Assembly: GCA_037200445.1 (NCBI GenBank)
Contig: JBBCGH010000001.1
Location: forward strand, 1,860,001 to 1,924,000
Origin: Alphaproteobacteria bacterium
GTDB taxonomy: Bacteria; Pseudomonadota; Alphaproteobacteria; Rhizobiales; Xanthobacteraceae
Reading direction: 5' to 3'
DNA: 64,000 nt
Shown here in pieces: positions 55,547-64,000 of the stretch. The first letter of the stretch is position 1. Each line of letters starts with the position of its first letter. The notes beneath the pieces are model-generated. The model saw nothing but the letters and a program-made list of their open reading frames with translations. It was not told where the DNA came from and ran no database searches. Made by a program: the position numbers and the translations under genes.

Positions 55547-56635
55547 CTACCCTTCCAGCCCCTCCGTCTGCGTAATCTCGATTCCGAAGCCGCCGAGCCC
55601 GACGTAAGTGTGCTGGCCGGTCGAGAGCAGGCGGATCGAGCGTACGCCGAGGTCGCGCAGGATCTGCGCGCCGAGGCCGATCTCGCGCCACTGACGGGTG
55701 CGGGCAGCCTCCGCGGCGCTCTCCTCCTGCGGCAGCGCCTGCACCGGCACGCCGGCGGTGCCGTCGCGCAGCACCACGATGACGCCGCGGCCGATCTGCT
55801 TGAAGCGCGCAAGTGCTGCGTTCACGCCTTTCCCGCCGCCGAAAACGTCGGTGATGATGTTTGCGCGGTGCAGCCGGGTCGGCACATCGGCGCCGTCGCC
55901 GATGCGCCCGTGCACCAGCGCCATGTGGTGCACTTTGTCGAACGGCGTCACGTAGGCATAGCCCTTGAGCGTGCCGATCGAAGTCTCGACCGTAAACTCG
56001 CCGACGCGTTCGACCAGCTTCTCGCGCGCCTGCCGGTAGGCGATCAGCTCGTCGACCGAGATTTGGCGGAGCTTGTGCTTCTGCGCGAAGGCCTTGATCT
56101 GCGGCCCGCGCATCACGGTGCCGTCGTCGTTGGTCAGCTCGCAGATGACGCCGACCGGCTCCAGATTGGCCAAGCGACACAGATCGACCGCGGCTTCCGT
56201 GTGCCCGGAACGCATCAGCACGCCGCCATCCTTGGCGATCAGCGGAAACACATGGCCGGGGCGCACGAAGTCGGCGGCGCCCGCATTGTTGTTGGCGAGA
56301 TTGCGCACGGTCGCGGTGCGGTCGTCGGCCGAGATGCCGGTGGTGGTGCCGTGCCTGTAGTCGACCGAGACCGTGAACGCGGTGCCGTGCGGCGCATCGT
56401 TGTCCGCCACCATCGGCGAGAGGCGCAGCCGGTGCGCAAGCTCGCTCGTCACCGGCGCGCAGACGATGCCGGCGGTGTTGCGGATGATGAAGGCCATCTT
56501 CTCCGGCGTCGCATGCGCCGCGGCCATCACGAGGTCGCCCTCGTTCTCGCGATCGTCGTCGTCGGTGACGACGACGATCTCGCCGCGCGCGAAGGCCTCG
56601 ACGGCTGCGGTGACGCGGACTTGCGTGTCGGTCAT
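55547..56635 (-). CDS. ribB: 3,4-dihydroxy-2-butanone-4-phosphate synthase with degenerate GTP cyclohydrolase II-like domain (RibBX)
   Basis: 362 residues from the ATG at 56635, overlapping aroC by 4 bases (ATGA). The RibB half (about 1-200) is intact: '[20 protein letters not shown]', '[20 protein letters not shown]' and '[15 protein letters not shown]'. The GTP cyclohydrolase II half lacks the zinc cysteines: the place of the CxxxxxxxxxxCxC motif reads '[18 protein letters not shown]'. It therefore matches the RibBX variant of Proteobacteria, in which only the RibB reaction is expected. Riboflavin biosynthesis. No FMN riboswitch is seen because aroC lies directly upstream. Confidence 0.93.
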
Positions 56636-57747
56636 GGCTTCTCGAATGGCCAGGCCGGCCCGTCGCCGACCTGCGCCCTGTGACGCAGATAGTGGTCGGC
56701 GATGACGCACGCCATCATGGCTTCACCGATCGGCACGGCGCGGATGCCGACGCAGGGGTCGTGGCGGCCCTTGGTGACGATCTCGGTCTCGTTGCCGTAG
56801 CGGTCCACGGTCTTGCGCGGGTTGAGGATCGAGGAGGTCGGCTTCACGGCGAAGCGCGCCACGACGGCTTGGCCGGTCGAGATGCCGCCGAGGATGCCGC
56901 CGGCGTGATTCGACAGGAAGCGCGGACGCCCGTCATTGCCCATGCGCATCTCGTCGCCGTTCTCCTCGCCGGACATTGCAGCGGTGGCGAAACCATCGCC
57001 GATTTCCACGCCCTTGACGGCGTTGATGCTCATCAGCGCGCCCGCCAAATCCGCATCGAGCTTGCCGTAAACCGGCGCGCCGAGACCCGCCGGGATGTTC
57101 TCGGCCACCACCTCGATCACGGCGCCGACCGACGAGCCCTGCTTGCGTACGCCGTCGAGGAATTGCTCAAAGGCCGTGACGCTGCCGGCGTCCGGGCTGA
57201 AGAAGGGATTGTTCTCGACCTCCTTCCAGGCCCAGCGGGTGCGGTCGACCTTGTGCGGCCCGATCTGGATCAGCGCGCCGCGCACCACCATGCCGGGCAC
57301 GATCTTGCGGGCAATCGCGCCGGCCGCGACGCGGGCCGCCGTTTCGCGCGCCGATTGCCGGCCGCCGCCGCGATAGTCGCGCAGGCCGTACTTGGCGTCA
57401 TAGGTGTAGTCGGCGTGGCCCGGCCGGTAAGTGTCCTTGATCTCTGAATAATCCTTCGAGCGCTGGTCGACGTTCTCGATCAGCAGCGCGATCGGCGTGC
57501 CGGTGGTCACCTCGCGCCCCGATTCGTCCGGGAGGGTGCCGGAGAGGATCTTCACCTTATCCGGCTCGCGCCGCTGTGTGGTGAAACGCGACTGGCCGGG
57601 CCGGCGCTTATCCAGATAGGGCTGGATGTCCGCGGCGGTCAGCGGAATGCGCGGCGGGCAGCCGTCCACCACGCAGCCAAGCGCGACACCATGGCTCTCG
57701 CCGAAGGTGGTGACGCGAAACAGGTGGCCGAAGGTGTTGTGGGACAT
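56632..57747 (-). CDS. aroC: Chorismate synthase
   Basis: 371 residues from the ATG at 57747. Catalyses EPSP to chorismate with reduced FMN, so it depends on the flavin that the next gene helps make. Conserved pieces: '[20 protein letters not shown]' start region, '[20 protein letters not shown]', '[20 protein letters not shown]' and '[20 protein letters not shown]'. The ATGA overlap with ribBX means translational coupling, a sensible pairing of FMN supply and use. Its upstream region holds the divergent NRPS promoter. Confidence 0.95.
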
Positions 57748-58104
57748 TGCGTTTCGCCCGTGCGGCGTCGTGGTAGCCCGCGTCACCATGAGGGTCAAAC
57801 AGTGATGCGCAAAGGAAGGATTCGCGGCTTAGCGCCTCCTCCTTAGCCATGCCGCAGGTGCGGCATTCTGGCTTGGGCATCCGGCAAACTACGCAGGCCC
57901 GATGGCGCTGTCTGAATACACATTCATGAAAACCTGAACGGCCGTTAAGCCACGGATATTATTGTTATATTTTGGACAGGTTCGCACAGGTTCATCGCAG
58001 GTTCATCGCCAAAACCCTACTTGTAGACCCGAGAAAACGGGGGCCTGACGCAGCGTGATTCTGCTGCTCAATCCCCCCTTTCCAAAACAGAAAAAAGCGT
58101 GCCG
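57748..58104. other. Divergent promoter region between aroC and the NRPS operon
   Basis: 357 bases. It is AT-rich from about 57905 to 57985 (for example 'TATTATTGTTATATTTTGG'), a likely core promoter. Two or three direct copies of CAGGTTC (57978-58004) follow, the last pair forming GTTC-N7-GTTC. No hairpin terminator is seen. Confidence 0.5.
57990..58004. promoter_or_regulatory. GTTC-N7-GTTC box (LexA-like) before the NRPS operon
   Basis: GTTCATCGCAGGTTC matches the alphaproteobacterial LexA box GTTC-N7-GTTC exactly. A third GTTC lies 10 bases earlier (57980). The spot is 100 bases upstream of the NRPS start, just after the AT-rich core. It could instead be an unrelated direct repeat; a single match of this 8-base pattern is not rare in a 64-kb window. 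Confidence 0.35.
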
Positions 58105-61100
58105 ATGGACCAGCCTTCCGACATCCGCAATTTGAGTGCGCACCGTCCGGTGAGTGCGCCTGTCGTCGAGCTACGCTCGGGAGCGCAACTGCGGCCCGAT
58201 CTGCGCGACGTGATCGAACCCGTCCGGCGCCGCTTCGGCCGTCCACAGCAGGTCATCCGTGAGCACACCAACAATGCGGTGCGCTGGAAGGCGGGCGAGC
58301 GGCTCAATCACGTGCTCGAAGAAGCTTGCATCCGCTTCTCGGAGAACGACGCGGTCGTCACCGAGGCGGGGACGCTCAGCTATCGCGAACTCGACTGCCG
58401 CGCCAACCAGGTCGCGCGCTACCTGATCGAGCAGGGCGTTGAGCCGGGCGACCGCGTCGGGCTCCTGTTCGAGAAATGCGCCGAGACCTACATCGCGATG
58501 CTCGCGGTGATGAAGGTGAACGCCGCCTACGTGCCGCTCGATGCCGCGTTTCCGCTCGAGCGCCTGCGCTTCATCATGGGCGACGCCGAGATCAAGACGA
58601 TCGTCTCGATGGCGAGCTTCGCCGAGCGGCTCGCGCCGCTCGAGGTGAAGAAGCTGTTCCTCGACACCGCCAGGCGCGCGATCGGCAAAAAGGACGCAAG
58701 CCGCCTCACCGGCGTGCCGCGCAGCCACGATCCGATCTGCTACATCATCTACACCTCGGGCACGACCGGAAATCCGAAGGGCGTTGCCATCGCGCACCCC
58801 AGCATCTGCAACTTCGTGCGCGTCGCGGCCGAGCTTTACGGCTACCAACCAAGCGACCGCATCTATCAGGGCATGACCATCGCCTTCGACTTCTCGGTCG
58901 AGGAGATCTGGGTGCCGCTGGTTGCGGGTGCGACGCTCGTTCCCGCGCGGCCGGGGCTCGCACTGATCGGCGACGAACTCGCGGATTTCCTGCGCGATCG
59001 TGACGTCACCGTGATGGCCTGCTGCCCGACCTTGCTCGCAACCATCGAGCAGGACCTTCCGAAGCTGCGCCTCCTGCTCGTCGGCGGCGAAGCCTGCCCG
59101 CAGAACCTCGTCGCGCGCTGGTACCGCCCGGGGCGCCGCATTCTCAATTCCTACGGCCCGACCGAGGCGACCGTCACCGCAACGCTCACCGAACTGCGGC
59201 CCGACAAGCCGGTCACCATCGGCGTTCCGCTCTCGACCTACACGATCGTCATCCTCGATCCGAACGAGGACAAGACGGTGGAGACCGGCGAACTCGGCGA
59301 GATCGGCATCGCGGGCGTCGGCCTTGCGCTCGGCTACATGAATCGCGACGAGCTCACGATGAAGAAGTTCATCCGCGATTTCCTCAATATCCAGAATAAC
59401 CCGTCCGGCCGCATCTACCGCACCGGCGACCTCGGCCGCATCGACGAGAACGGCGAGATCGAATACCGCGGCCGCATCGACACGCAGGTGAAGATCCGCG
59501 GCTATCGCATCGAGCTCAACGAAATCGAGGCGGTGCTGCTCGACCTGCCGCAGATCGCGCAAGCGGCTGTCACGACGTTCGAGCCGGAAGAAGGCGTCAT
59601 CGAGATCGTCGCCTACTACGCCTTCAAGCACGGCGCGGAGCTGCCGCGCGACGAGATTTCGCAGGCGCTGCGCGGAAAGCTTCCGCCCTACATGGTCCCG
59701 GCGTTCCTCGAAGAGCTGCCGTCGATCCCGATGACGCTCTCGAACAAGGCCGACCACAAGCGCCTGCCGAAACCGCAGCTTGCGCGCTTTTCCGCGGCGA
59801 CCTCCGGTTACGTGGCGCCGAAGACCGAGAACGAGCGCATCCTGCATACGGCGCTCTGCGAGGTGCTGCGCGTCGATCGCGTTTCGGCCGAACACCACTT
59901 CTTCGACGAACTCGGCGCGAACTCGCTCTTGATGGCGCGGGTCTGCGCGACCATCCGCAAGAATCCGCGCATGGCCAACGTGTCGATGCGCGACATCTAC
60001 ACCAATCCGACGATCGCGCGGCTTGCCGATCACCTCGACAAGGTGATCGACGGCTTCGTGGCGGTGAAGCCCGAGCCGTTCCACGTCCCGTCGAATCTCG
60101 CATATTGGACCTGCGGCGCGCTGCAGGCCGCCTTCTATGCTGCCTACGCGCTGTTCGGCTTGTGGGTTCTCGATGTCGGCTACGAGTGGACCGTTGCGGC
60201 TTCGAGCGTGCTCGAGAATTATGTCCGTGGCGTCCTGTTCGCCGCCGGCTCGTTCGTCGCGCTGACCGGCATTTCGATCGTCGCGAAGTGGCTGCTGATC
60301 GGGACGTTCGAGGAAGGCACGATCCCGATCTGGAGCCCCGCCTATTTCCGCTTCTGGGTCGTGAAGACCATGATGCGCACGTCTCCGGTAATGGCCTTCA
60401 CCGGGACGCCGATCTACAACGCCTATCTGCGCCTGATGGGCGCGAAGATCGGCAAGGGCGTGGTGCTGAGCTGCCGCTATGGGCCGGTGGCCGCCGACAT
60501 GGTCACGATTGGCGACAATACGATCCTGCGCAAGGACACGATCGCTCTCGGCTATCGCGCGCAGTCGAACTTCATCCACATCGGCCCGGTCGAGATTGGC
60601 TCAGGTGCCTTCGTCGGCGAGGCGAGCGTCCTCGACATCAACACCACGATGGGCGACGACGCGCAGCTTGGCCACGCCTCATCGCTGCAAAGCGGCCAGC
60701 ATGTGCCGGACGGCAAGCACTATCATGGCTCGCCCGCGGTCGAGACCACGTCCGACTACTGCCCGATCGAGAGCCGCGAGATCGGCGCGCTGCGCAGCGC
60801 GTTCTACACTGCGCTCGAGCTCGCCGCGCTGTTCCTGGTCGCGGTGCCGCTGCCGATCGTCGCGTATCAACTCTGGGATCAGTACGCGGCCGCGGCCGGC
60901 ATCGGCCTTGGCGTCTCGGCGCTGTCGCTGCTCGGTCTCTCGGCGGTCGCGTTCTTCGGCTCGATCATCCTCGGCGTTGCGGCGGTCTACGTGATCCCGC
61001 GGCTTTGCATGATGTTCCTCACGCCCGGCGTCACTTATCCGGCGTTCGGCTTCCACTACCTGATGCAGAACATCATCCTGCGCGTGTCCAATTCGGAATT

Positions 61101-62256
61101 CTTCTGCGTGCTGTTCGGCGACTCGACGTTCATCACGACCTGGATGAGCAAGGTCGGCTGGAACTTGAACAAGGTCGAGCAGACCGGCTCGAACATGGGC
61201 ACCAACCAGCGCCACGACAATCCGTTCCTGTGCAACATCGGCTCGGGTACGATGGTCTCCGACGGCCTGTCGATGATCAACACGCACATGTCGGCGACCT
61301 CTTTCCAGCTCGCCGAGGCCAAGATCGGCGAGAACAATTATCTCGGCAACGACATCTTCTACCCGCCGAACGGCAAGACCGGCGCGAACGTCCTGCTTGG
61401 CACCAAGGTGATGATCCCGATCGAGGGGGAGGTGCGCGAGAACGTCGGACTGCTCGGCTCGCCCGCCTTCGAGATCCCGCGCATGGTGGACCGCGACCGC
61501 GACATGAACGCCTCGTTCGACGAGGCGACGCGCCGCGCCCGTCTCGCCCAGAAGAACCGCTACAACGCCGTGACTGCGGTCATTTTCCTCGCCGCCCGCT
61601 GGATGTCCTTCTTCGCCGCGCTGGTGTTGTGGACCGCCGCGCTCGCCTCCTACGATCGCTTCGGCGTGTTCGCGCTGTTCGCCGCGACCGTTGCGATGGC
61701 GGGCGGGACGATCGTGCTCTTCGTCCTGCTCGAGCGCGCAAGCCTCGCGTTCGGGCGGCTCGAGCCGAAGCTTGCCTCGATCTACGACCCGTACTTCTGG
61801 TTCCACGAGCGGCACTGGAAGCTGTCGGAATCGCAGGTCGCGCGCATGTTCCCCGGCACGCCGTTCCGCTCCTGGATCTATCGTGCGATGGGCATGACGG
61901 TCGGCGCCAAGGTGTTCGACTGCTCGCGTTCCGTCACCGAGCGCACGCTCACGCACGTCGGCGATTACGCCAACCTCAACGAAGGCTGCGTGTTGCAGGC
62001 GCACTCGCTGGAGGAGGGCGTATTCAAGTCGGATCACATCCGCCTTGGCAAGGGCTGCTCGATCGGGCCCGGCGCGTTCGTGCACTACGGCGTCACGATG
62101 AGCGACCATGTGGTGCTCGATGCCGACAGCTTCCTGATGAAGGGCGAAGTGCTCGACTCCCACACCGGCTGGCGCGGCAATCCGGCGAAGCTCACGCGCC
62201 GCTTCGCAGCAGACTCCGCGGACGCGTGCGAGGAGTACCGCATCGCGGCGGAGTAG
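58105..62256 (+). CDS. Pls/PosA-type single-module NRPS with membrane and beta-helix acyltransferase domains
   Basis: 1383 residues from the ATG at 58105 (a GTG at 58099 is the alternative). Adenylation domain (about 65-560): A3 'YTSGTTGNPKGVA', A5 'NSYGPTEATVT', A7 'RTGDLGRIDENGEIEYRGR', A8 'VKIRGYRIELNEIE'. The carrier domain has the phosphopantetheine Ser607 in 'FFDELGANSLLMARV'. Then come transmembrane helices (about 665-760, 875-960, 1150-1215) alternating with left-handed beta-helix (hexapeptide) stretches such as 'GKGVVLSCRYGPVAADMVTI' and 'HIRLGKGCSIGPGAFVHYG'. No condensation or thioesterase domain is present. This is the layout of Pls/PosA enzymes that make linear cationic isopeptides. 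Confidence 0.9.
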   Translation: MDQPSDIRNLSAHRPVSAPVVELRSGAQLRPDLRDVIEPVRRRFGRPQQVIREHTNNAVRWKAGERLNHVLEEACIRFSENDAVVTEAGTLSYRELDCRANQVARYLIEQGVEPGDRVGLLFEKCAETYIAMLAVMKVNAAYVPLDAAFPLERLRFIMGDAEIKTIVSMASFAERLAPLEVKKLFLDTARRAIGKKDASRLTGVPRSHDPICYIIYTSGTTGNPKGVAIAHPSICNFVRVAAELYGYQPSDRIYQGMTIAFDFSVEEIWVPLVAGATLVPARPGLALIGDELADFLRDRDVTVMACCPTLLATIEQDLPKLRLLLVGGEACPQNLVARWYRPGRRILNSYGPTEATVTATLTELRPDKPVTIGVPLSTYTIVILDPNEDKTVETGELGEIGIAGVGLALGYMNRDELTMKKFIRDFLNIQNNPSGRIYRTGDLGRIDENGEIEYRGRIDTQVKIRGYRIELNEIEAVLLDLPQIAQAAVTTFEPEEGVIEIVAYYAFKHGAELPRDEISQALRGKLPPYMVPAFLEELPSIPMTLSNKADHKRLPKPQLARFSAATSGYVAPKTENERILHTALCEVLRVDRVSAEHHFFDELGANSLLMARVCATIRKNPRMANVSMRDIYTNPTIARLADHLDKVIDGFVAVKPEPFHVPSNLAYWTCGALQAAFYAAYALFGLWVLDVGYEWTVAASSVLENYVRGVLFAAGSFVALTGISIVAKWLLIGTFEEGTIPIWSPAYFRFWVVKTMMRTSPVMAFTGTPIYNAYLRLMGAKIGKGVVLSCRYGPVAADMVTIGDNTILRKDTIALGYRAQSNFIHIGPVEIGSGAFVGEASVLDINTTMGDDAQLGHASSLQSGQHVPDGKHYHGSPAVETTSDYCPIESREIGALRSAFYTALELAALFLVAVPLPIVAYQLWDQYAAAAGIGLGVSALSLLGLSAVAFFGSIILGVAAVYVIPRLCMMFLTPGVTYPAFGFHYLMQNIILRVSNSEFFCVLFGDSTFITTWMSKVGWNLNKVEQTGSNMGTNQRHDNPFLCNIGSGTMVSDGLSMINTHMSATSFQLAEAKIGENNYLGNDIFYPPNGKTGANVLLGTKVMIPIEGEVRENVGLLGSPAFEIPRMVDRDRDMNASFDEATRRARLAQKNRYNAVTAVIFLAARWMSFFAALVLWTAALASYDRFGVFALFAATVAMAGGTIVLFVLLERASLAFGRLEPKLASIYDPYFWFHERHWKLSESQVARMFPGTPFRSWIYRAMGMTVGAKVFDCSRSVTERTLTHVGDYANLNEGCVLQAHSLEEGVFKSDHIRLGKGCSIGPGAFVHYGVTMSDHVVLDADSFLMKGEVLDSHTGWRGNPAKLTRRFAADSADACEEYRIAAE

Positions 62257-62287
62257 GGCGCGCCCCACGCCGCGCGCGGCGTCTCGG

Positions 62288-62740
62288 ATGTCAGAGAAGG
62301 TCAGACTTGAGGACGTGACCGTGCGCAACTGGCGCGCAGTCGCGCGCCTCAAGCTTGCGCCCGACCAGCAAGGTCTTGTCGCCAGCAATCTCTACTCGAT
62401 CGCGCAGTCGAAATTCGATCCGAATGCGCATCCGCGCGCGGTCTATGCCGGCGACAAACCGGTCGGTTTCCTGATGTACGATGTGCGGGAGACCAAGGAC
62501 CAAACGCGCGAGGCTTCGATCTACCGCTTCATGATCGACCGCAATCATCAGGGAAAAGGTTACGGGCGCGCGGCGCTCACCCAGGCGCTTGCGGAGATCA
62601 GAGCCGTTCCCGGCATCAGGAAAATCTCGATCGGCTACATGCCGGAGAACCCGGTCGCAAAGCCGTTCTACGCCAGCTTTGGATTTGTCGAGGCCGGCAA
62701 GGACGACGACGGCGAGATCATCGCGGAATTGACCCTGTGA
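62288..62740 (+). CDS. GNAT acetyltransferase, polyamine type (BltD/PaiA-like)
   Basis: 150 residues from the ATG at 62288, 31 bases after the NRPS stop. The pattern 'VRNWRAVARLKLAPDQQGLV' and 'NLYSIAQSKFDPNAHPRA' with 'VGFLMYDVRETKDQTREAS' is that of spermidine/diamine acetylases such as BltD. The acetyl-CoA motif is 'RNHQGKGYGRAALTQAL'. It would acetylate a primary amine. Its stop overlaps the PPTase start by 4 bases (GTGA). In this operon it may modify or detoxify a basic product. Confidence 0.88.
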   Translation: MSEKVRLEDVTVRNWRAVARLKLAPDQQGLVASNLYSIAQSKFDPNAHPRAVYAGDKPVGFLMYDVRETKDQTREASIYRFMIDRNHQGKGYGRAALTQALAEIRAVPGIRKISIGYMPENPVAKPFYASFGFVEAGKDDDGEIIAELTL

Positions 62741-63378
62741 CCGCCGCTTTCGACCAAGCGCTGCAGCGCGAGCTCGATGCGCTTGCCGTGGGCGGACTGC
62801 TGATCGGCCATCGCATCATCCAACCTGGAGACGAGACTGCGTTGCGCGCCGAGGAGGCTGTTGCGCTGGCATCACGCCCCCCGAGCGCGCGGCGCGCCAG
62901 CGGCGCAGCCCGTATCGTGGCGCGCGCGCTTCTCGCGCGCCTTGGCTACCCGGGAGCACTCCTGCCGAAGGGCGCCGGCGGCGAGCCGCTCTGGCCACCC
63001 GGTATCGTCGGCTCGCTCGCGCATGACGATGATGTCGCCGTCGCGGCTGTCGCATCAACGCGTGATTTCGCGAGCATCGGAATTGACGCGGAGCCTGCGC
63101 GCGCGCTGCCGGCCGACATGCTCGACCTTGTCGTCACGCCGCCCGAGCGGCGCATGATCGCTGATGATCTGTTGCGCGCGAAGCTGCTGTTTGCCGCCAA
63201 GGAGGCCGTCTACAAGGCGGTCTATCCGGTCGATCGCGTGTTTCTGGAGTTTGGCGACATCCAGGTTGATCTCCTAGCCAGCAAGGCCACGATGCGCAGC
63301 GGACGGGTCGTATCGCTGCGGACCTGTGCGTCTTCGCGCATTGTCGTGCTCGCGCTGATCCGCGCGGATCAGGCATAG
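62737..63378 (+). CDS. Sfp-type 4'-phosphopantetheinyl transferase
   Basis: 213 residues from a GTG at 62737 overlapping the GNAT stop. Motifs: 'GEPLWPPGIVGSLAHDDDVA', 'IGIDAEPARALPADM' (metal-binding Asp/Glu) and 'LLFAAKEAVYKAVYPVDRV' (W/KExxxK type). This EntD-like group installs the phosphopantetheine arm on carrier Ser residues, here most likely Ser607 of the NRPS in the same operon. It may also serve other carriers. It is convergent with the DUF6445 gene and overlaps it by 10 bases. Confidence 0.92.
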   Translation: MTAAFDQALQRELDALAVGGLLIGHRIIQPGDETALRAEEAVALASRPPSARRASGAARIVARALLARLGYPGALLPKGAGGEPLWPPGIVGSLAHDDDVAVAAVASTRDFASIGIDAEPARALPADMLDLVVTPPERRMIADDLLRAKLLFAAKEAVYKAVYPVDRVFLEFGDIQVDLLASKATMRSGRVVSLRTCASSRIVVLALIRADQA

Positions 63379-64000
63379 AGCCGGCAGGACGACCAATCCA
63401 CACCAATCCGATAGGTCTGATATACCCGCCCCTCGCGCAGGTTCGCGCCGTAGTGACGCGAGGCGGAATGCAGCATGCCGCTTGCGTAGGCCACCATGCG
63501 ATTGAAGCGGTAGCCCGCGCGATCGATCTCCTGCCACTTTTCCCGGTTCTCCGAGTCGCGCTCCAGCCGCTCGCGCAACGCGGTCAGCGTGGTGTTGAGC
63601 CGGCGCGCATCGCGCGGCGTCGGTGCGTTGATGAGGCCGGTCGCGCGGTGCTGCCAGAGCGAGGTGCCGCAATCGACCGGCAGGCCGGGCGTCAGATAGA
63701 TCAGTACGGTGATGTCGTCGTCTGGCTCATCGTAGTGAACACCCGGGACCTCTTTCTGTTCGCCACGCGAGAAGGCCTGGTAGAAGATGCCATTGCCGTC
63801 ATCGGGATCGTCGTCCCAGCGCGTGATCTTGATGCCGAGAACGTGCTCGAGACGCCGCTTGATTCCGGGAGGGTGATAGACGCGCGTGGTCATGTAGCCG
63901 GTGATGCCCTCGACCGGTTCGAATGACATCGAGAGCGCCGTGCGGCGCACGTCCTCGGGATCGGAATAGAAATCGTCGCGGACCAGCAGGAAGCGATGCA
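63369..64000 (-). CDS. DUF6445-like protein, partial (5' end beyond the window)
   Basis: At least 210 residues, open to the window edge. Reads 'LLVRDDFYSDPEDVRRTALS' near the edge, then 'FSRGEQKEVPGVHYDEPDDD' with an HxDxPDD-like metal site, 'SLWQHRATGLINAPTP', 'GMLHSASRHYGANLREG' (second His) and 'VYQTYRIGVDWSSCRLYA'. The HxD...H...R pattern fits a 2-oxoglutarate / Fe(II) oxygenase-like fold, as in the DUF6445 family. It faces the NRPS operon and overlaps the PPTase 3' end. A role in product tailoring is speculation. Confidence 0.75.
   Translation of the reverse strand, partial: HRFLLVRDDFYSDPEDVRRTALSMSFEPVEGITGYMTTRVYHPPGIKRRLEHVLGIKITRWDDDPDDGNGIFYQAFSRGEQKEVPGVHYDEPDDDITVLIYLTPGLPVDCGTSLWQHRATGLINAPTPRDARRLNTTLTALRERLERDSENREKWQEIDRAGYRFNRMVAYASGMLHSASRHYGANLREGRVYQTYRIGVDWSSCRLYA

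Follow-up and report, generated by a model that had tools for sequence, protein, structure and literature searches.

In a 64,000-nucleotide stretch of the genome of a soil alphaproteobacterium of the family Xanthobacteraceae (contig JBBCGH010000001.1, positions 1,860,001 to 1,924,000; hereafter the window), three open reading frames (ORFs) lie on one strand at 58105-63378, in the order of a Pls/PosA-type non-ribosomal peptide synthetase (NRPS), a GCN5-related N-acetyltransferase (GNAT) and a 4'-phosphopantetheinyl transferase (PPTase). We consider it fairly probable that they form a dedicated cassette making a cationic isopeptide, whose monomer would be a diamino acid, most likely L-ornithine, and which would then be N-acetylated. 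The synthetase family is already known, its products including ε-poly-lysine, poly-diaminobutyrate (poly-Dab) and δ-poly-ornithine; what would be new is a probable switch of monomer, together with acetylating and activating enzymes of the cassette's own.

Membership of the synthetase in the Pls/PosA family, as claimed in the original prediction, is secure, judging from the match of its terminal domain to the TIGR02353 'Pls/PosA family' model, which reached 693.4 bits against a curated cut-off of 423.1 and covered positions 1-695 of 695. The Pfam families AMP-binding (268.4 bits), AMP-binding_C and PP-binding were matched as well, while no condensation or thioesterase domain was found among the Pfam matches of the synthetase at E <= 0.001, in agreement with the proposed adenylation-carrier architecture devoid of both. 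A search of the whole genome for the condensation domain PF00668 gave no match either. Membrane helices and beta-helix domains, which had also been proposed, are supported by an AlphaFold model covering residues 660-1385 (mean predicted local distance difference test score, pLDDT, 86.8; all residue numbers of the synthetase are counted from the GTG at 58099), where three pairs of long helices are predicted, with beta-helix-like strands after each. The six helix stretches are hydrophobic (19-residue hydropathy maxima 1.47-2.36), the membrane helices being judged from model and hydropathy together, and the best Protein Data Bank (PDB) matches of the modelled domain were hexapeptide-repeat acetyltransferases. 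The report on PosA describes an arrangement of helix pairs and beta-helices for the model of that enzyme too (PMC10522769). Among 104 aligned synthetases Ser609 of the carrier domain is invariant (104/104), and so are Q1300, H1302, E1305, K1310 and K1348 wherever the residue is present (102-103 of 104), all of them located in the third beta-helix region. This invariant polar cluster spans residues 1300-1348, which correspond to window positions 61996-62142. Elsewhere in the part examined (570-1385), only Ser609, D800 and N1084 are equally invariant polar residues. Since family-wide invariant polar residues gather in the third beta-helix, its Q/H/E/K cluster suggests itself as a candidate condensation site.

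The three genes are also kept together in other genomes. Among sampled genomes, TIGR02353 exceeded its cut-off in 31 of 391 at the level of the family and in 69 of 397 at that of the order, and loci (L numbers; genomes carry G numbers) were fetched for 30 of the 31 (without G195) and 68 of the 69 (without G582), plus two below the cut-off (L165, L166); from plasmids, where 33 records matched, seven annotated stretches and one unannotated stretch were fetched. In a FastTree phylogeny of 104 synthetases, rooted on L165/L166 and leaving out eight sequences shorter than 1100 amino acids (L049, L051, L084, L085, L088, L110, L113 and L152), the window synthetase belongs to a clade of 34 from Hyphomicrobiales (clade A; local support 1.0). 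Its relatives include proteins of 77% identity in Pseudolabrys metagenome-assembled genomes (MAGs) and of 83% in one alphaproteobacterial MAG. Clade A is nested in a clade of 53 with DFE-type codes (support 0.939), in which the remaining 19 sequences, here called group B, surround it as a grade. Cassette content was scored wherever a clade A locus extends downstream of the synthetase, in 32 loci with the window included (L080 and L095 left out): 24 contained all three genes in the same order and strand, one the GNAT only, six the PPTase only and one neither. The linkage thus exceeds chance, since order and strand are kept in 24 of 32 loci; together with the tight spacing (31 nt between synthetase and GNAT, and a 4-nt overlap of GNAT and PPTase), this confirms the three-gene locus that had been noticed from the same-strand ORFs. 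The 4-nt overlap recurs in 13 of the 25 non-window loci where both starts could be placed (the partial-synthetase loci L051 and L085 included), and pairwise distances of synthetase, GNAT and PPTase correlate over 24 loci (r = 0.83, 0.74 and 0.75; permutation p = 0.0001). On plasmid pAU20a of Aureimonas sp. AU20 the full cassette is present, with each gene annotated on its own, as Pls/PosA family NRPS, GNAT and 4'-PPTase, whereas a Phyllobacterium plasmid carries synthetase and GNAT and a Shinella plasmid synthetase and PPTase. As a separate observation, plasmid pBCI1-2 of an ant-associated Pseudonocardia (L195) contains split AMP-binding and Pls/PosA ORFs near genes of the TauD and cysteine synthase families.

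Clade A and group B differ in the supply of their putative monomer. Of the group B loci, 18 could be tested for an EctB-type diaminobutyrate transaminase gene next to the synthetase, and 15 have one, which lies upstream in the orientation of the synthetase in 13 of them and is divergent in two (L193, L161 and L112 lack it; L082 has too little upstream sequence to be counted). Four of these transaminases were scanned, and each scored above the 552.2 bits required by TIGR02407 (605.7, 625.0, 608.6 and 643.3). Given EctB beside these synthetases, Dab is likely the monomer of group B. By contrast, EctB was found beside none of 30 testable clade A synthetases (L067, L070, L077 and L079, with less than 0.6 kb upstream, left out). 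Genome-wide, Dat matches over the cut-off occurred in 8 of 10 group B genomes, a part of that group, but in 2 of the 30 searched for clade A, a set made up of 28 genomes assigned from the phylogeny and of G336 and G151, assigned from fragment identities of 62% and 78%. Within the genome of the window the best TIGR00709 match reached 184.9 bits against a cut-off of 401.6, and no Dat or EctB gene was found among the neighbouring genes. An EctB-type gene lies beside a Pls/PosA synthetase in 16 alphaproteobacterial loci (L048, L052, L109, L110, L111, L114, L115, L117, L118, L124, L126, L131, L135, L150, L154 and L191), which points to poly-Dab synthesis beyond actinomycetes. These EctB-linked relatives, as well as the change in the pocket described below, go beyond what had been predicted for the locus.

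The ten-residue adenylation code of the window synthetase is DFEALGSVTK (residues 264, 265, 268, 307, 327, 329, 351, 359, 360 and 550). Asp264 and Glu268, at code positions 1 and 3, are the residues that mark a positively charged substrate in this family, and such a pocket would suit a diamino acid with its side-chain amine, in keeping with the basic amino acid originally proposed as substrate. Only 3 of 468 adenylation columns (309, 329 and 351) contain no residue common to clade A and group B; columns 329 and 351 correspond to code positions 6 and 7 (hypergeometric p = 0.0012). The window has the Gly at 6 and Ser or Thr at 7 and 9 of PosA-type codes (Gly329, Ser351, Thr360), with Phe265 in the place of their Met at position 2, and it departs from the Ser6 and Ala or Val7 of the EctB-linked type. 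Gly6 with Ser/Thr7 also occurs in PosA-like and lysine-like codes, and Ser6 with Val7 in a beta-lysine-like code; in PosA, according to its structural description, the Thr at position 7 contacts the delta-amine of ornithine (PMC10522769). We trust the extraction of the codes because other loci of the same alignment, from which six multi-module NRPS loci (L053-L058) and duplicate loci were left out, match those published in PMC10522769: DMEHNGTVTK in L104/L108 versus DMEHNGTVSK for PosA, DLED[ILV]G[ST]VVK in 35 loci versus DLEDIGTVT/V/IK in Rhizobia and others, and DGESVSVVNK in L145/L146/L157 versus the beta-lysine-type DGESISVVNK. Since EctB is missing from clade A and the residues at code positions 6 and 7 have changed there, the monomer of this clade would no longer be EctB-made Dab.

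The third product of the cassette very probably serves the synthetase alone. Its 4PPT_N (62.3 bits versus a gathering score of 27) and ACPS (44.1 versus 25) domains are well over threshold, and the only other PF01648 match in the genome is AcpS (TIGR00516, 96.8 bits versus 59.8); it is because the genome contains no condensation-domain NRPS and AcpS is the sole other match that the PPTase appears dedicated, which upholds the earlier suggestion of an activating enzyme belonging to the locus.

The GNAT contains the sequence QGKGYG, which we take to be the acetyl-CoA loop motif, and its model has a mean pLDDT of 94.6. By sequence (E 1e-11) and by first Foldseek rank its closest solved relatives are spermine/spermidine acetyltransferases of Enterococcus faecalis, although the 758 PDB matches obtained with Foldseek at E <= 0.001 do not discriminate among acetylases. 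Four NCBIfam families were matched, all far under their cut-offs (PaiA 19.1 versus 250; rimI 28.2 versus 86.4). The likeness to spermidine acetylases that had been proposed therefore stands as far as the nearest solved relatives are concerned, but 'polyamine-like' describes a resemblance and not a family assignment. The conserved residues Asp84, Asp139 and Glu143 would suit a cationic substrate. Among 80 chosen genomes, a GNAT match of at least 115 bits, a threshold fixed after the scores were known, was found in 23 of 30 from clade A and in 1 of 50 others (G720, group B), and at E <= 1e-8 in 23 of 30 versus 4 of 50; the Fisher p of 6e-13 is indicative only, since the genomes are related. A phylum-wide search at E <= 1e-22 retrieved 11 of 398 genomes, 7 of them with a synthetase. 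Capping or neutralization of the product would be the simplest role for such an enzyme. In the early-branching loci L135 (15615-16070) and L154 (2290-2772), outside clade A, a related GNAT (36% and 45%) is encoded some 3.4-3.5 kb upstream, along with EctB and synthetase, and since both carry it the link may be older than clade A.

Taken together, these data suggest the following sequence of events. The PPTase would load the carrier domain, as its homologues do, and the adenylation domain would activate a diamino acid, its alpha-amine held by Asp264 and its side-chain amine by Glu268, Ser351 and Thr360 if the pocket works like that of the PosA structure. The membrane-bound terminal domain, with its three predicted beta-helices, would link one residue to the next by way of the side-chain amine in the manner of Pls and PosA, and the likely site of this reaction is the invariant Q/H/E/K cluster in the third beta-helix. 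Finally, linkage and resemblance suggest that the GNAT acetylates a free amine of the product, leaving it capped or neutralized, perhaps for self-protection. The monomer, the linkage, the target of acetylation and the biological role are what we infer. At the base of clade A, the monomer would have switched from EctB-made Dab to an amino acid present in every cell, L-ornithine being the most likely one. As the monomer of the window synthetase, ornithine is our leading, though tentative, candidate; Dab from another source seems rather unlikely, some other monomer equally so, and diaminopropionate (Dap) improbable. A supply of Dap by the SbnA route was considered and rejected, because the two top-scoring SbnA-type proteins of the genome (192.8 and 211 bits versus 349.95) are cysteine synthases.

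The gene content, its conservation, the code and the absence of EctB are observed; their interpretation has to be weighed against other explanations and against several points that speak against a monomer switch with product acetylation. The ten group B sequences closest to clade A join it at a support of 0.778 only, the test of columns was run after the alignment had been inspected and with L112 left out, and the correlation of distances, which fits joint inheritance, is equally expected from shared genome descent. Phe is found at position 2 of all 34 clade A codes, and this residue is described as the signature of the shorter Dap and Dab substrates, ornithine having Met (PMC10522769); it argues against ornithine, so that the pocket and supply arguments diverge. 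Clade A enzymes might accordingly still be poly-Dab or poly-Dap synthetases, fed with a short diamino acid from an unrecognized aminotransferase or from outside, the code changes tuning the pocket or stereochemistry. EctB adjoins the synthetases of their relatives, the clade A genomes G593 and G688 hold Dat genes on other contigs, and, of five class III aminotransferases scanned from the window's genome, L170 and L174 passed no family cut-off among the matches listed, which makes a Dab route outside the Dat family possible. We nevertheless judge this explanation unlikely: no Dat passes the cut-off in the window's genome or in 28 of the 30 clade A genomes, the other three aminotransferases (L169, L171 and L172) pass the cut-off of another family, the best SbnA-type candidates are the cysteine synthases mentioned above, and the two code positions differ exactly where EctB is absent.

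Other alternatives concern the acetylase and the polymer itself. The GNAT might act on free polyamines or on the monomer, for supply or detoxification, beside an otherwise ordinary cationic homo-polyamino acid (CHPA) synthetase with its PPTase. Twelve of 32 GNAT members weakly match EctA, the Dab acetyltransferase (best 4.9e-9), although that of the window does not; six clade A loci have the PPTase without the GNAT, which is absent altogether from 7 of 32 testable loci and is therefore dispensable for the pathway. Three further genomes outside clade A (G763, G630 and G128) give lower GNAT scores of 78-90 bits, and in five loci with GNAT homologues of 38-49% identity, from four genomes that belong to other families, no synthetase was found within about 9 kb or up to the contig end. 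As homologues exist away from any synthetase, the GNAT probably derives from a broader family of enzymes that acetylate amines. The tight linkage of GNAT to clade A, seen in the 115-bit comparison, makes us regard a function apart from the product as rather unlikely. More improbable still is that no polymer is made and that one activated diamino acid is transferred to an amine such as a polyamine, the conjugate being acetylated by the GNAT, an amine-conjugate having been the second product considered in the original prediction: chain length cannot be read from the cassette and the nearest solved GNAT relatives do act on spermine and spermidine, but the synthetase has the full TIGR02353 domain of known polymerases, including the residues invariant over 104 aligned members. 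Accidental adjacency of the three genes seems next to negligible, even though 8 of 32 testable loci lack the GNAT, the PPTase or both, in view of the conserved order and strand, the recurrent overlap and the same cassette on the Aureimonas plasmid.

We therefore favour a dedicated cassette for an acetylated cationic isopeptide. The more specific proposal is advanced as a possibility open to considerable doubt: that clade A left EctB-made Dab through the replacement of two pocket residues, and that its product is a new cationic isopeptide bearing N-acetyl groups, either as a cap or on part of its amines, the first in this family to have a dedicated acetyltransferase. Few cationic isopeptide polymers are known, and if the proposal holds, it would offer a clean evolutionary experiment, in which two pocket residues changed and the precursor gene is absent. 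Acetylation of the product would then be a new feature of this polymer family, and the PPTase, paired with its synthetase by nature, would be of use in heterologous expression.

Table 1. Genes, domains and residues of the cassette, in window coordinates
Feature	Position	Strand	Basis or distribution
Pls/PosA-type (CHPA) synthetase, 1383 amino acids from the conserved ATG	58105..62256 (alternative GTG start 58099)	+	ORF, Pfam, NCBIfam
Adenylation domain	58318..59748	+	Pfam match, code extraction
Code position 6, Gly329	59083..59085	+	Gly in 34/34 clade A; Ser in 18/19 group B (exception L112, split and misaligned)
Code position 7, Ser351	59149..59151	+	Ser/Thr in 34/34 clade A; Ala, Val or Leu in 18 aligned group B
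Carrier (PP-binding) domain, phosphopantetheine Ser609 at 59923-59925	59842..60036	+	Pfam match, alignment
NRPS_term_dom (TIGR02353), three membrane-helix pairs and three left-handed beta-helix regions (predicted)	60109..62187	+	NCBIfam, model, hydropathy
Q1300, H1302, E1305, K1310, third beta-helix region, candidate condensation site	61996..62028	+	Alignment of 104
GNAT N-acetyltransferase, 150 amino acids	62288..62740	+	ORF, domain and sequence matches
Sfp/PptT-type PPTase, 213 amino acids	62737..63378	+	ORF, domain matches

The ATG at 58105 is preferred as the start of the synthetase because the orthologues L074, L077 and L080 have Met at the matching place. A promoter scan of the locus gave no promoter-like site, and terminator predictions remained below the shuffle expectation. 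Neighbouring genes do not appear to belong to the cassette. Downstream, a DUF6445 gene (63369-63998, minus strand; 47.6 bits versus a threshold of 24) runs off the window end; it was rejected as a fourth member, being convergent and without a homologue in the other fetched loci, including L074, whose synthetase is 83% identical. Upstream, aroC and ribBA were likewise discarded, as divergent genes of primary metabolism. In the RibBA-like protein (55547-56710) the half corresponding to GTP cyclohydrolase II reaches 26.5 bits for TIGR00505 (cut-off 205.85), although it meets the Pfam model with 97 bits, and this half may be degenerate. Two TIGR02353 subfamilies, only about 30% identical to each other, are each found no more than about 10 kb from aroC, in most cases with ribBA nearby as well, and their orientations differ (window 55547-57798, L073, L074, L079; L116, L120, L122, L127, L128, L129, L130, L132, L148, L152, L163).

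The original prediction held that the locus is not a standard known cluster. Among the open-licence PMC papers retrieved by the literature searches, none describes a GNAT-PPTase cassette with such a synthetase or the EctB-linked proteobacterial group in its title or the opening of its abstract, and to that extent the statement stands; it falls short in that the cassette recurs in many Hyphomicrobiales, with its genes annotated singly. The E. faecalis spermine/spermidine N-acetyltransferase (PDB 2fl4, 9dsb) is the nearest solved relative of the GNAT at 28% identity, with a poor whole-chain alignment (root-mean-square deviation 9.7, TM score 0.65). Nearest to the synthetase are the EctB-linked TIGR02353 loci of group B (L048, L114, L191 and others; 44-57% identity over the aligned part), which share a code starting with DFE and in several cases a PPTase downstream, but differ in the adjoining EctB, in Ser6-Ala/Val7, in a PPTase of another subfamily and, mostly, in the absence of the GNAT (L135 and L154 have both EctB and GNAT).

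Among characterized enzymes, Pls, the epsilon-poly-L-lysine synthetase, has its family and terminal domain in common with the window synthetase. Gly6 and Thr7 are found in nine loci with DAES codes that we take as the lysine (Pls) type, a comparison made by code alone, and Pls is reported to have Ala at position 2, where the window has Phe (PMC10522769). PddA, the poly-D-Dab synthetase of Streptoalloteichus hindustanus, is described as a membrane-bound single-module NRPS-like polymerase (PMC8225329) and is likened here by that description; the EctB-linked relatives of clade A are probably of the same Dab type. The account of pddA couples it to the Dab racemase gene pddB (PMC8225329), whereas in the window cassette a GNAT and a PPTase were seen and no racemase or Dab supply gene. 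According to the 2023 report on PosA, cationic isopeptide polymers had not been reported before it from bacteria other than actinomycetes (PMC10522769). This delta-poly-L-ornithine synthetase of Acinetobacter baumannii has the same domain order and terminal-domain family as the window synthetase, and its published code is identical at positions 1, 3, 6, 8 and 10, with Ser or Thr at 7 and 9 in both, while the window has Phe for Met at 2, Ala for His at 4 and Leu for Asn at 5. The same report gives posA as a single-gene operon, whereas the window synthetase is followed by its GNAT and PPTase.

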